NCBI RefSeq assembly: GCF_004138495.1
Contig: NZ_ML142861.1
Coordinates: 153,302-170,689, forward strand
Reading direction: 5' to 3'
Length of the DNA stretch: 17,388 bases
Origin: Phytoactinopolyspora endophytica
GTDB lineage: Bacteria; Actinomycetota; Actinomycetes; Jiangellales; Jiangellaceae
The notes under the pieces are model-generated. The model saw nothing but the letters and a program-made list of their open reading frames with translations. It was not told where the DNA came from and did no database searches. Every line of letters starts with the position of its first letter. The stretch's first letter is position 1. The translations under genes were made by a program, and so were the position numbers. Of this stretch, positions 2,154-4,415 are shown one piece after another.

Positions 2154-2453
2154 TCAGGCGACGGTGACGTCGACGGTGTTGACCGCGCCCTTCGTCGCCA
2201 CGACCGAGCGGTCGACTGTCTCGGCGCCCGGCGCAAGCGTCCGAACCGTCCACTGCCCCGGGGCAGCGAAGAACCGGAACTGGCCGGTCGTGCTCGTCGG
2301 TACCTCGGCCGTGAACTCACCCGTGGAGTCGAGCAGCCGCACGTACGCGCCCGAGAGCGGCGCGTCGTCACGCGATACCACTCCCTGGATCACGGTCTCC
2401 TTCGCCAGGTCGACGCCGTCCAACGACGCGCCGCCGGTAGTCGCTCCGCACAT
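2154..2453 (-). CDS. sseC: DUF1416 protein, SseC-like
   Basis: Small 99-residue protein of the DUF1416 family, called SseC in mycobacteria and linked there to sulfur metabolism; no biochemical activity is established that I know of. Recognisable stretches are LEKET-like LAKETVIQG near 16-24, VRLLDSTGEFTAEV near 38-51 and GQFRFFAAPGQWTVR near 57-71, suggesting a small beta-sandwich of carboxypeptidase-regulatory type. It begins 4 bases after the sseA stop, with GGAGG placed inside the end of sseA, so it is the last gene of that operon. The pairing with sseA is conserved in actinobacteria. It is followed by the convergent terminator region. Confidence 0.9.
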   Translation of the reverse strand: MCGATTGGASLDGVDLAKETVIQGVVSRDDAPLSGAYVRLLDSTGEFTAEVPTSTTGQFRFFAAPGQWTVRTLAPGAETVDRSVVATKGAVNTVDVTVA

Positions 2454-2457
2454 GTGC

Positions 2458-3306
2458 TCAGGCCTCCCCTGGCTCGTCGCCGACCGCGACCGGCACGCCG
2501 ACCAGCGAGCCGTACTCGGTCCACGAGCCGTCGTAGTTCTTCACGTTCTCCACACCGAGGATCTCCCGCAGCACGAACCAGGTGTGCGACGAGCGCTCAC
2601 CGATGCGGCAGTAGGCGATGGTGTCCTTGTCGAGCTCGACACCCTGGTCGGCGTACAGCTCACGCAGCTCGTCGTCGGAGCGGAACGTGCCGTCGTCGTT
2701 GGCCGCCTTGCTCCACGGGATGTTCGCGGCGGTCGGGATGTGTCCCGGCACCTGCGACACCTCCTGAGGCAAGTGAGCCGGGGCGAGCAGCCGGCCGGCG
2801 TACTCGTCTGGGGAACGGACGTCGACGAGGTTCTGCGCGCCGATCGCGTTGACCACTTCGTCGCGGAAGGCGCGGATGGAGTTGTCCGCCTCCTGCGCCG
2901 TGTACTGGGTCGGGGTGCGCTCCGGCACGTCCTCGGCCAGGTCACGGGCGTCGAGCTCCCACTTCTTGCGCCCCCCGTCGAGCAGCCGGACGTCGGCGTG
3001 CTTGAAGAGCTTGAACTGCCAATACGCGTAGGCGGCGAACCAGTTGTTGTTGCCGCCGTAGAGGATTACGGTGTCGTCGCTGGAGATGCCGAGGCGCGAG
3101 AGCAACGCCTCGAACTGCTCCTTGTTGACCAGGTCGCGGCGGACGGGGTCCTTCAGATCCTGGTTCCAGTTGACCTTGACGGCACCACGGATGTGGTTCT
3201 TGTCGTAGGCGGTGGTGTCTTCATCGACCTCGACGAGGACCACTTTGGGGTCATCGAGATGCTGTTCGACCCAATCGGCCGAGACGAGCGCGGACTCGCG
3301 GCTCAT
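2458..3306 (-). CDS. sseA: Thiosulfate sulfurtransferase (rhodanese)
   Basis: A 282-residue two-domain rhodanese that moves sulfane sulfur from thiosulfate, or a similar donor, to cyanide or thiol acceptors through a cysteine persulfide. The inactive N-terminal domain (about 1-125) carries ILYGGNNNWFAAYAYW and LLDGGRKKWE. The catalytic domain (about 150-275) carries DVRSPDEYAG and the active-site loop AYCRIGERSSHTWF with nucleophile C233. It closely resembles mycobacterial CysA/SseA proteins as I recall them. The start ATG overlaps the DUF4395 stop as ATGA and has GGAGG 7 bases upstream. Genes downstream of the leader peptide at 3841-3918 appear to be one unit, so expression probably follows cysteine supply. 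CysA in the mycobacterial name should not be confused with the sulfate-transport ATPase. Confidence 0.95.
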   Translation of the reverse strand: MSRESALVSADWVEQHLDDPKVVLVEVDEDTTAYDKNHIRGAVKVNWNQDLKDPVRRDLVNKEQFEALLSRLGISSDDTVILYGGNNNWFAAYAYWQFKLFKHADVRLLDGGRKKWELDARDLAEDVPERTPTQYTAQEADNSIRAFRDEVVNAIGAQNLVDVRSPDEYAGRLLAPAHLPQEVSQVPGHIPTAANIPWSKAANDDGTFRSDDELRELYADQGVELDKDTIAYCRIGERSSHTWFVLREILGVENVKNYDGSWTEYGSLVGVPVAVGDEPGEA

Positions 3307-3740
3307 GGAGTGACCTCCGGTGTGTTGTTGGAGCGGGCGGAAACGATGCGGCGGTAAGCCAGATAAACCTCGCAGCCGAGACAGAAGCCGAATGCAGCGT
3401 TGAGGAACGCCGCAGCCAGCGCCGCGCCGACTGCGACATACGCGATGGCCGTCACGCCGGACAGATAGCCGGCGAGACCGATGACACTGAATCCCAGACC
3501 GACCGCTTGGGCGAACCGGGGCGGCATGGGATCTTCGAGCTCAGCGGGCGGCTTCAGACGAGGCCTGACCAGCTTGATGTAGAGGTATCCGTACGGCGAC
3601 CGGGACGGGCCACGGAGCACCGCCACGGCGAAGACGACTGCCTGCAACGCCAGCAGCCAGGCACTGCCCGTGATGAGAACGGCCGCCAAGACGACGGTGG
3701 TGACCACCGCGGCAAGCCGGGGACCTCGTGGGTCGATCAT
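3303..3740 (-). CDS. DUF4395 integral membrane protein
   Basis: A 145-residue membrane protein of the DUF4395 family. Hydrophobic segments fall near residues 10-30, 31-44, 77-92 and 96-125. A paired-cysteine motif, FCLGC (C120, C123), lies near the C-terminal end of the last segment and is followed by EVYLAYRR. The CxxC suggests thiol-disulfide or persulfide chemistry at the membrane, but no activity is established for the family that I know of. The start at 3740 is chosen for its AGGAG 9 bases upstream; the frame stays open 14 codons further without a better site. It overlaps sseA by ATGA, so the two are translationally coupled, and it is the first structural gene after the leader peptide. 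Confidence 0.85.
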   Translation of the reverse strand: MIDPRGPRLAAVVTTVVLAAVLITGSAWLLALQAVVFAVAVLRGPSRSPYGYLYIKLVRPRLKPPAELEDPMPPRFAQAVGLGFSVIGLAGYLSGVTAIAYVAVGAALAAAFLNAAFGFCLGCEVYLAYRRIVSARSNNTPEVTP

Positions 3741-3788
3741 GGTGGGGAGCTCCTGACGCGGACGAGTGGGGCAAAGGCGCACACGTGG

Positions 3789-3839
3789 GGGAACAGGCGC
3801 TAAGGCGCCGCGCTATGCGGCACGACGACAGCGGTTCCC
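3789..3839 (-). promoter_or_regulatory. Candidate attenuator hairpins downstream of the leader peptide
   Basis: On the minus-strand transcript, two short stems compete. GCCGC (3821-3817) can pair with GCGGC (3811-3807), and GGCGC (3809-3805) can pair with GCGCC (3800-3796). They share bases 3809-3807, so only one can form. An outer stem, GGGAAC (3839-3834) with GTTCCC (3794-3789), can enclose both and begins one base after the leader stop codon. A ribosome stalled near the end of the leader would cover the outer stem. This is the layout of an attenuator, though no T-run is present. Confidence 0.5.
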
Positions 3840-3840
3840 G

Positions 3841-3918
3841 TCAGGACATTCGACAGAGCATGGTAGCGACGCGCCGGTAATCGATGGCGCGTCTGCGAGT
3901 CAGCTCTGTGCGGAACAC
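3841..3918 (-). CDS. Cysteine-type leader peptide (25 aa), probably leaderless
   Basis: A 25-codon frame starts with GTG at 3918 and ends with TGA at 3841-3843. The encoded peptide holds RRRAIDYRRVATMLCRMS at its C-terminus. From memory this fits the pattern of actinobacterial putative leader peptides found before sulfur-assimilation and sulfurtransferase genes: a basic stretch, hydrophobic-Asp, a conserved Arg, and a cysteine a few residues from the stop (C22 here). It sits 100 bases ahead of DUF4395-sseA-sseC. A good -10 box ends 7 bases before the GTG, so the mRNA probably begins at the start codon. Slow translation at the Cys and following codons under cysteine limitation would alter the hairpins downstream and raise operon expression. 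Confidence 0.7.
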   Translation of the reverse strand: MFRTELTRRRAIDYRRVATMLCRMS

Positions 3919-3925
3919 GTTTACG

Positions 3926-3954
3926 AGACTAAGTCCGATCGGCTCCGTCGTCAC
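3926..3954 (-). promoter_or_regulatory. Promoter of the leader-DUF4395-sseA-sseC operon
   Basis: On the minus strand, GTGACG (3954-3949) and TAGTCT (3931-3926) form a -35/-10 pair with a 17-base spacer. The -10 fits TAnnnT. The first base of the leader GTG (3918) lies 7 bases past the -10, as expected for a leaderless transcript. Confidence 0.6.
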
Positions 3955-3969
3955 GCCTCGTATCAAATA

Positions 3970-3987
3970 TTGAGACCATTGTCTCAA
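3970..3987. promoter_or_regulatory. Palindrome TTGAGAC-CATT-GTCTCAA, candidate operator
   Basis: A perfect 7-bp inverted repeat with a four-base spacer lies in a locally AT-rich patch. It is 52-69 bases upstream of the inferred start of the leader transcript and 11 bases past the thioredoxin-like stop codon. Position suits an activator or repressor site for the sulfurtransferase operon. A short terminator for the upstream gene is the alternative, though the stem is AT-rich and weak for that. Confidence 0.45.
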
Positions 3988-3998
3988 CTCGCGGGCTG

Positions 3999-4415
3999 TC
4001 AAAGTGCGTTCAAGGCTGCGTGCACGTCCGCCGACCGAGGCACACCACTCGCCCGGCCGACCACCCGGCCCGAGCCGTCGACGACGAGCGTGGTCGGCGT
4101 GCGGGATATCCCCAGCCGACGGACCAGATCGAGCCGGGACTCGGCGTCGACCTCGATATGCTCCACGCCGTCGGCCGTCCCGGCGACGTTCGCCAAGACC
4201 CCACGAGTAGCCCGGCACGGCTGGCAGAACGCTGACGAGAACTGGACGAGCGTGGCGCGGGCGCCGAGAACCTGTCCGAGCTCGTCACTGTCGACCACCA
4301 GCTCGTCCGAGGTCGCCTCCGGCATCGCTCGCACCTTTCCATCCCGCTGGCGCCGCCACAGCCCGAACGCTGCGGCCAGCGCCAAGACGATGACAACGAC
4401 GAGAAGACCGATCAC
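3999..4415 (-). CDS. Membrane-anchored thioredoxin-like protein (ThiX-like)
   Basis: A 138-residue protein with an N-terminal hydrophobic helix (about 2-20) followed by RRQR, then a thioredoxin fold from about residue 42. The redox motif is FCQPCR with C64 and C67, and the cis-proline loop is SRTPTTLV with P107. Basic residues after the helix suggest the fold stays on the cytoplasmic side, although a secreted orientation cannot be excluded. The equivalent M. tuberculosis gene (Rv0816c, thiX) occupies the same place between sseA and a membrane-protein gene. Here the leader and DUF4395 lie between it and sseA. Start is GTG 4415 with only a weak ribosome-binding site. It may reduce or receive persulfides or disulfides formed by the neighbouring sulfurtransferase; that is inference. 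Confidence 0.87.
   Translation of the reverse strand: MIGLLVVVIVLALAAAFGLWRRQRDGKVRAMPEATSDELVVDSDELGQVLGARATLVQFSSAFCQPCRATRGVLANVAGTADGVEHIEVDAESRLDLVRRLGISRTPTTLVVDGSGRVVGRASGVPRSADVHAALNAL

Follow-up and report, generated by a model that had tools for sequence, protein, structure and literature searches.

Can a short leader peptide with a single Cys codon report on cysteine supply? The question is raised by a 25-codon reading frame ahead of a DUF4395-sulfurtransferase-SseC operon in a 17,388-nucleotide stretch of DNA (the window, meaning the whole stretch analysed). Here, we report a computational analysis of this leader and of its counterparts throughout the class Actinomycetes. Going by sequence comparison and RNA folding, the leader with its one Cys codon is probably a gauge of cysteine supply: were a ribosome to pause at this codon, the start signal for the gene downstream would be exposed.

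Leader and promoter

The features of the locus are collected in Table 1. Judged by its conservation, the leader ORF is real. A preliminary description of this DNA had read a 25-codon frame from GTG 3918 with the end RRVATMLCRMS, and this frame was borne out, the peptide being conserved. The leader was compared with NCBIfam models and matched NF042933 ("Ms5788A family Cys-rich leader peptide"; E 7.8e-7, 28.7 bits, below the cut-off of 45) and NF042934 ("putative leader peptide"; E 0.0031, 17.1 bits, below the cut-off of 27); NF042936 (Ms4527A) was absent from the matches listed at E ≤ 1. A poly-Cys leader of another genome reached 56.3 bits against NF042933. Of the traits of NF042933, the place upstream of a cysA2-type sulfurtransferase operon was found (DUF4395, rhodanese and DUF1416 genes lie downstream), and the Cys-rich C terminus was not, the window leader and all 21 leaders of the order having a single Cys each. 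By sequence, the window leader is a divergent relative of the Ms5788A family.

Table 1. Positions of the leader, its RNA elements and the neighbouring genes in the window
Feature	Positions	Strand	Basis
-35-like hexamer GTGACG	3949..3954	minus	sequence; 17 nt to -10
-10 box TAGTCT	3926..3931	minus	sequence; 7 nt to GTG start
Leader ORF, GTG start, 25 codons + TGA (3843-3841), (M)FRTELTRRRAIDYRRVATMLCRMS, then stop	3841..3918	minus	conserved; NCBIfam match
P0 5' arm ACAGAGC (codons 4-6), pairs with GCUCUGU 3859-3853 (codons 21-22) around Cys22	3903..3909	minus	
Cys codon 22, UGU, sole Cys, three codons before stop	3853..3855	minus	conserved UGU
P2 5' arm, anti-Shine-Dalgarno UCCUGACG (last codon, stop, 2 nt)	3839..3846	minus	helix search; RNAalifold
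P1 5' arm (outer stem) GGGAAC, directly after stop	3834..3839	minus	best-helix search, 21 order loci; shuffle control
P1 3' arm GUUCCC	3789..3794	minus	double changes in relatives
P2 3' arm CGUCAGGA, overlaps DUF4395 Shine-Dalgarno	3751..3758	minus	helix search; RNAalifold
Shine-Dalgarno AGGAG of DUF4395	3750..3754	minus	sequence; 9 nt before ATG 3740
DUF4395 protein, first operon gene	3303..3740	minus	Pfam PF14340, E 5.3e-47; ATG 3740
Two-rhodanese-domain sulfurtransferase (SseA/CysA2 type)	2458..3306	minus	Pfam PF00581, E 2.9e-34, two stretches; overlaps DUF4395
DUF1416 / SseC	2154..2453	minus	Pfam PF07210, E 1.2e-39
Thioredoxin-like protein, upstream of leader promoter (context)	3999..4415	minus	Pfam PF00085, E 1.1e-7

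The leader transcript is predicted to be leaderless, since only 7 nt separate TAGTCT from GTG 3918. This -10 box had been proposed before, and its spacing is kept beyond chance in relatives: TANNNT lies 6 to 7 nt before an in-frame RTG in 88/104 leaders when the best-spaced RTG is chosen, and in 59/104 with the nearest in-frame RTG. Most of the Jiangellales sequences inspected have GTGAC at about the same distance as the window. A generic sigma-70 scan of the window gave no promoter, so the promoter call rests on conservation. An Rfam scan of the window returned nothing at the gathering score.

Distribution in relatives

Family and order searches covered the same 22 genomes, all of one family. 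Of these Jiangellales genomes, 21 have a DUF4395 orthologue, with a leader upstream in 21/21 and one Cys in each. One genome (G015) carries a second, diverged DUF4395 copy (L023; 37 to 40% identity), for which the motif search gave no leader. In the class-wide sample, DUF4395 was found at E ≤ 1e-8 in 180/246 genomes, and 138 DUF4395 loci in the class Actinomycetes were examined, these being among the matches listed, with a few passed over. A leader was found at 113 of the 138: 104 by motif (after an off-motif match, L165, was dropped from 105 regular-expression hits) and nine more by an HMM search that left out L023. These nine enter only the later codon and residue counts, not the statistics with n = 104. 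All nine loci from the family of Streptomyces griseorubiginosus had no DUF4395 leader by motif or HMM; in four genomes of that family (L298, L299, L302, and L303), a leader lies ahead of a sulfurtransferase-type gene instead. A phylum-wide search matched 9/149 genomes, all nine within the class Actinomycetes.

The same leader type precedes other genes. Out of 68 other loci, the regular expression found a leader at 62 and none at 6, and 60 of the 62 had a readable downstream ORF. BLASTP clusters (one member of each Pfam-checked, L279 and L312) placed a rhodanese-type sulfurtransferase behind 25 leaders and a sulfite reductase behind 17. The window's own genome has a second leader of this type (L170; G000:C21:117200-121700, ending at 557), with a single UGU Cys and the end ...VVRRHVDYRRVSSMMCLTS, followed by sulfite reductase, PAPS reductase, and siroheme-type genes (Pfam); it resembles NF042936 Ms4527A (26.4 bits, cut-off 45). 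Another leader in the window's order (L173), also with UGU, stands before a solute-binding/ABC transporter set. Leaders of this type were also seen before varied genes at L295, L311, L313, L320, L322, L337, and L350, where Pfam readings include a PALP enzyme (cysteine synthase-like), a molybdopterin oxidoreductase, a luciferase-like monooxygenase, and solute-binding proteins; going by their leaders, these are possible unrecognised cysteine-controlled genes.

Peptide body and Cys codon

The non-Cys body of the peptide is, by sequence comparison, conserved as amino acids. R9, R10, D13, and R16 recur with synonymous changes, and R9 uses six codons including AGR (entropy, 2.0 bits). Invariance at these four residues and at the Cys is partly by construction, since the motif filter for the 104 leaders called for D13, R16, a Cys, and effectively R9/R10; the codon findings are independent of the filter, which worked on amino acids. 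Among the nine HMM-found leaders, R16 is replaced by H or L in three, R10 by L in two, and Cys22 by R in one. At GC-rich loci, CGC is favoured at R10 (78/85) and R16 (74/85), against a DUF4395 gene background of 38%.

The number of Cys codons varies (one in 35, two in 27, three in 30, and four or more in 12 of the 104 leaders), and a single Cys is also found in 21/62 leaders at other loci. Runs of at least four Cys occur, among the matches listed, only in one mycobacteria-like family (f4), where five or six are consecutive in L153, L157, L162, L163, and L164; from likeness to published leaders, we take this family to be Mycobacteriaceae. Common to all 104 leaders is Cys22, always nine residues after D13, with 3 codons to the stop in 75/104 and 2 in 19/104.

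This shared Cys is encoded by UGU in 102/104 leaders and in 8/8 of the HMM-found leaders that have it (110/112 DUF4395 leaders in total). Where these peptides have a further Cys upstream, at position 15, its codon is UGC in 62/65. At GC-rich loci, UGU makes up 84/85 at Cys22 versus 1/58 at Cys15 (57/58 UGC), and the DUF4395 genes in the same comparison have 26 UGU and 150 UGC (26/176). Kinship is allowed for in the Fisher and Wilcoxon p values only through non-redundant sets, where UGU was counted at position 22 in 17/18 and at 15 in 0/12 (12/12 UGC). The window genes have 8 UGU and 30 UGC. At other loci, position 22 is UGU in 58/60 leaders (59/62 before removal of L323 and L330, which adjoin a DUF4395-like gene); the remaining Cys codons in the 62 leaders comprise 60 UGC and 13 UGU. 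UGU is read by wobble by tRNA-Cys(GCA).

The single Cys had earlier been taken as a hint of a different sensing mechanism. That view is supported: one Cys in place of a run suggests more than a counting of Cys codons, and a nascent-chain or UGU-specific stall would be plausible.

Pairing of the leader end with the Shine-Dalgarno sequence

In the window, UCCUGACG and CGUCAGGA pair perfectly over 8 bp, across the Shine-Dalgarno (SD) sequence AGGAG, a pairing between stop region and SD that the preliminary description missed (helix P2). As anti-SD pairing needs, the stop is TGA in 87/104 leaders and the preceding codon TCC or CCC in 67/104. The rare-context Arg/Met/Ser codons invoked earlier are not needed, the C-terminal Ser/Pro and stop being better explained as the anti-SD arm. 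The helix between leader end and SD region had a mean score of 16.3, versus 11.2 in shuffled sequences and 10.9 in upstream windows (n = 104; Wilcoxon p ~1e-14), and 59% of loci were individually at p ≤ 0.05. Flanking pairs of P2 covary (permutation p 0.001 for 50 non-redundant loci and 0.002 for 92 loci; the pair counts omit 12/104 loci whose SD window has no AGG), with variants such as CCCUGA/UCAGGG, UCCUGA/UCAGGA, and CCUGAAC/GUUCAGG. Most of this signal lies at the two positions that follow the stop codon; upstream of the core, pairs are about at expectation, and the core itself hardly varies (permutation p 0.08, non-redundant set). RNAalifold, run on the window and five relatives, picked P2 and extended it into the GGGA also used by P1 (covariation term, +1.83 on the six sequences; no P2 pair with a double change there).

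Leader-end anti-SD pairing as a general rule was ruled out: at p ≤ 0.05 it was found in 0/25 leaders before sulfurtransferase genes (one of which, L323, adjoins a DUF4395-like gene) and in 0/17 before sulfite reductase genes, so this RNA platform is not general. In the poly-Cys leaders L153, L157, and L162 to L164, the Cys codons CUGUUG look complementary to CAACAG at the SD, an anti-SD position that differs from that at the stop codon.

Other stems

The outer stem proposed earlier (P1) exists and, as a group, beats shuffled sequences in the order, and in the window alone it is not above chance (p 0.33). A best-helix search found a counterpart after the stop in the 21 order loci (weak in L021 and L022), with a score of 21.1 versus 15.8 shuffled (n = 21; Wilcoxon p 1e-6) and 12/21 individually at p ≤ 0.05. 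Among six sequences, P1 shows compensatory double changes (A-U/G-C and G-C/C-G). The two inner stems of the preliminary description, GCCGC(3821-3817)/GCGGC(3811-3807) and GGCGC(3809-3805)/GCGCC(3800-3796), also exist and share three bases; they are no more than expected by chance, and their columns are not conserved in relatives, for which reason the overlapping inner hairpins were rejected as the switch. What persists of the earlier interpretation is the cysteine-type leader, predicted leaderless and of the mycobacteria-like kind, before a sulfur operon; relatives keep the peptide, the outer stem, and also the anti-SD helix described above. The fold z-score of 3860-3735 was -1.38.

Twelve Jiangella-type loci (g5; L008 to L014 and L016 to L020) carry UUCCUGACG, a further copy of the anti-SD that shares bases with the 3' arm of P1 and would make a three-state switch possible. 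When only the RNA downstream of the ribosome was left free to fold, predicted SD openness in these loci was 0.3 to 0.5 in 6/12 with a ribosome at Cys22 and 0.02 to 0.07 in 11/12 with a ribosome at the stop.

A further helix, P0, takes in the Cys22 codon. It is strong in 37/104 DUF4395 leaders (hence not class-wide) and reaches p ≤ 0.05 in 3/62 others. Its 5' arm uses the rare Thr codon ACA (16/262 Thr codons in the window genes). In free-RNA folds, the wobble U of UGU22 is usually paired (mean unpaired, 0.20 versus 0.33 for leader bases; n = 101). Because this U pairs with the ACA of codon 4, the UGU bias could be partly structural in Jiangellales; P0 as the sole reason for UGU was rejected, given its strength in 37/104 and 3/62 leaders while UGU is near universal.

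Ribosome position and proposed mechanism

The effect of a ribosome on the SD was modelled at 102 loci, 2/104 with long gaps being left out. Mean predicted SD openness was 0.20 in free RNA, 0.33 with a ribosome at Cys22 (p 9e-8), and 0.20 with one at codon 15; gains above 0.3 were seen in 24/102 loci for Cys22 and in 0/102 for codon 15. The window went from 0.10 (free) to 0.43 (ribosome at Cys22). In Jiangellales the mean gain was small, from an openness of 0.17 to one of 0.24, and openness fell at 7/21 loci. A second model, with only the downstream RNA free, gave class means of 0.21 (codon 15), 0.34 (Cys22), and 0.29 (stop) and window values of 0.20, 0.28, and 0.21, respectively. With a class openness of 0.29, the stop position is not clearly "off" in the second model. 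Given these means and the small gains in the order, the explanation leans more on pairing and spacing than on energy.

The reading that we consider fairly likely, based on sequence and predicted structure, is a cis-acting, cysteine-responsive translation attenuator. Transcription would start at GTG 3918, and a ribosome would translate the leader at once. With ample Cys-tRNA, the ribosome would pass UGU22 and leave at the stop, and the freed UCCUGACG would pair with CGUCAGGA, so that the DUF4395 SD would be hidden and the operon off. When Cys-tRNA is short, the ribosome would wait with UGU22 in the A site, and its 3' edge (about 12 nt downstream) would cover UCCU(GA) and leave GGGAAC free; P2 would therefore be blocked, P1 allowed, and the SD exposed. 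A ribosome held at Cys22 would mask the anti-SD because the Cys codon lies 2 to 3 codons before the stop. The near-invariant UGU and the body R-R-x-V/I-D-x-x-R probably strengthen or sharpen the stall, and such help would let one Cys codon match a mycobacterial run.

A broader proposal is held more tentatively, as possible but short of even chances. The conserved nascent chain (R-R-x-V-D-x-x-R) and the chosen UGU would jointly set the stall in one class-wide cysteine sensor, with the UGU/UGC wobble distinction as part of the sensor and the RNA output swapped between operons; the poly-Cys mycobacterial leaders would then be derived, codon number replacing nascent-chain help.

Alternative explanations

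A TnaC-like arrest peptide would sense free cysteine or another sulfur signal, with R-R-x-V-D-x-x-R...C in the exit tunnel halting translation at UGU22 or the stop, or close by. It would suit a body that is kept as amino acids while its codons vary (six at R9) and that recurs ahead of sulfurtransferase, sulfite reductase, solute-binding, and other genes; it would also suit the lone Cys of 35/104 DUF4395 leaders and 21/62 others and the constant nine residues from D13 to the Cys in 104 leaders. We nonetheless think it unlikely: a Cys codon before sulfur genes is directly explained by starvation, HMM-found leaders tolerate H or L at R16 (three) and L at R10 (two), and purely peptide-based arrest does not predict UGU over UGC. 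In addition, PMC9031893 reports that a mycobacterial relative works via cysteine-dependent elongation speed. Control at the level of transcription, with leader translation deciding Rho-dependent or intrinsic termination before DUF4395, is about equally improbable. Rho was suggested for mycobacterial cys leaders and a transcription attenuator was proposed for the Mycobacterium tuberculosis ilvB1 leader, in PMC1262725 and PMC13236596, respectively. Against this, an intrinsic-terminator consensus scan of 3600-4100 found no terminator-like site, between leader and DUF4395 or elsewhere in that range, what is conserved in the RNA is the anti-SD/SD helix and P1, and leader-to-gene gaps go down to 36 to 46 nt (L066, L074, and L055), which leaves little room.

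That the leader encodes a small protein acting in trans would account for the strong amino-acid conservation, and yet the sequence past Cys22 tracks RNA pairing (Ser/Pro and TGA), separate copies lie in cis before different genes, and the codon choice of UGU is near-invariant; we regard this as very unlikely. Least credible, to the point of being negligible, is a chance ORF with an ordinary hairpin, for which a short frame in GC-rich DNA and the modest fold z-score could be cited, as it is contradicted by class-wide conservation, promoter spacing, and codon choice.

Comparison with known systems

Leaderless cysteine attenuators are already known, and the single-Cys form with UGU and a stop-codon anti-SD is a putative variant of them. 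By our sequence comparison, the new elements are the stop-codon/SD pairing with class-wide covariation, the UGU bias, and the conservation of the body at the amino-acid level; neither the UGU bias nor a stop-codon anti-SD was reported in the texts reached by an open-library literature search. The poly-Cys attenuators of mycobacteria are thereby placed in a class-wide set of leaders with one common Cys codon. Two predictions follow: a synonymous change of UGU to UGC should weaken regulation, and body residues that make no demand on Cys supply should matter.

The window leader resembles Ms5788A of Mycobacterium smegmatis (NF042933) in the cysA2-type operon downstream, the leaderless start (predicted for the window leader), the core T-K-R-R-A-V-D-x-x-R, and a Cys near the stop. 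They differ in that Ms5788A has a run of Cys and the window leader one, and in that the SD is reportedly paired by the Cys codons there and, by prediction, by the last codon and stop here. SD sequestration was reportedly described for the Ms5788A leader, or poly-Cys leaderless short ORFs, by Canestrari et al. in 2020. The likeness to NF042934 and to NF042936 Ms4527A lies in the core R-R-x-V-D-x-x-R-x-x-x-x-x-C.

In the mycobacterial orthologue, ribosomes occupy the short ORF before cysA2, according to PMC4633059, and contiguous-Cys leaderless ORFs regulate downstream translation by attenuation, according to PMC9031893. A candidate attenuator of the Rhodobacterales, uORFC-8-2 before cysS, is likewise a uORF with Cys codons and differs, according to PMC8632094, in its two tandem Cys, dominant UGC, and U-run terminator. 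Cys leaders predicted in 2005 in Mycobacterium, P. acnes, and B. longum (PMC1262725, in the part available) share with the window leader a Cys near the stop before cys operons and the lack of a terminator; they have Cys runs, and that part describes neither SD pairing nor codon bias and leaves their mode of regulation as unknown to its authors. In the stop-codon anti-SD, the DUF4395 type of leader gains a candidate RNA output that the 2005 prediction lacked.
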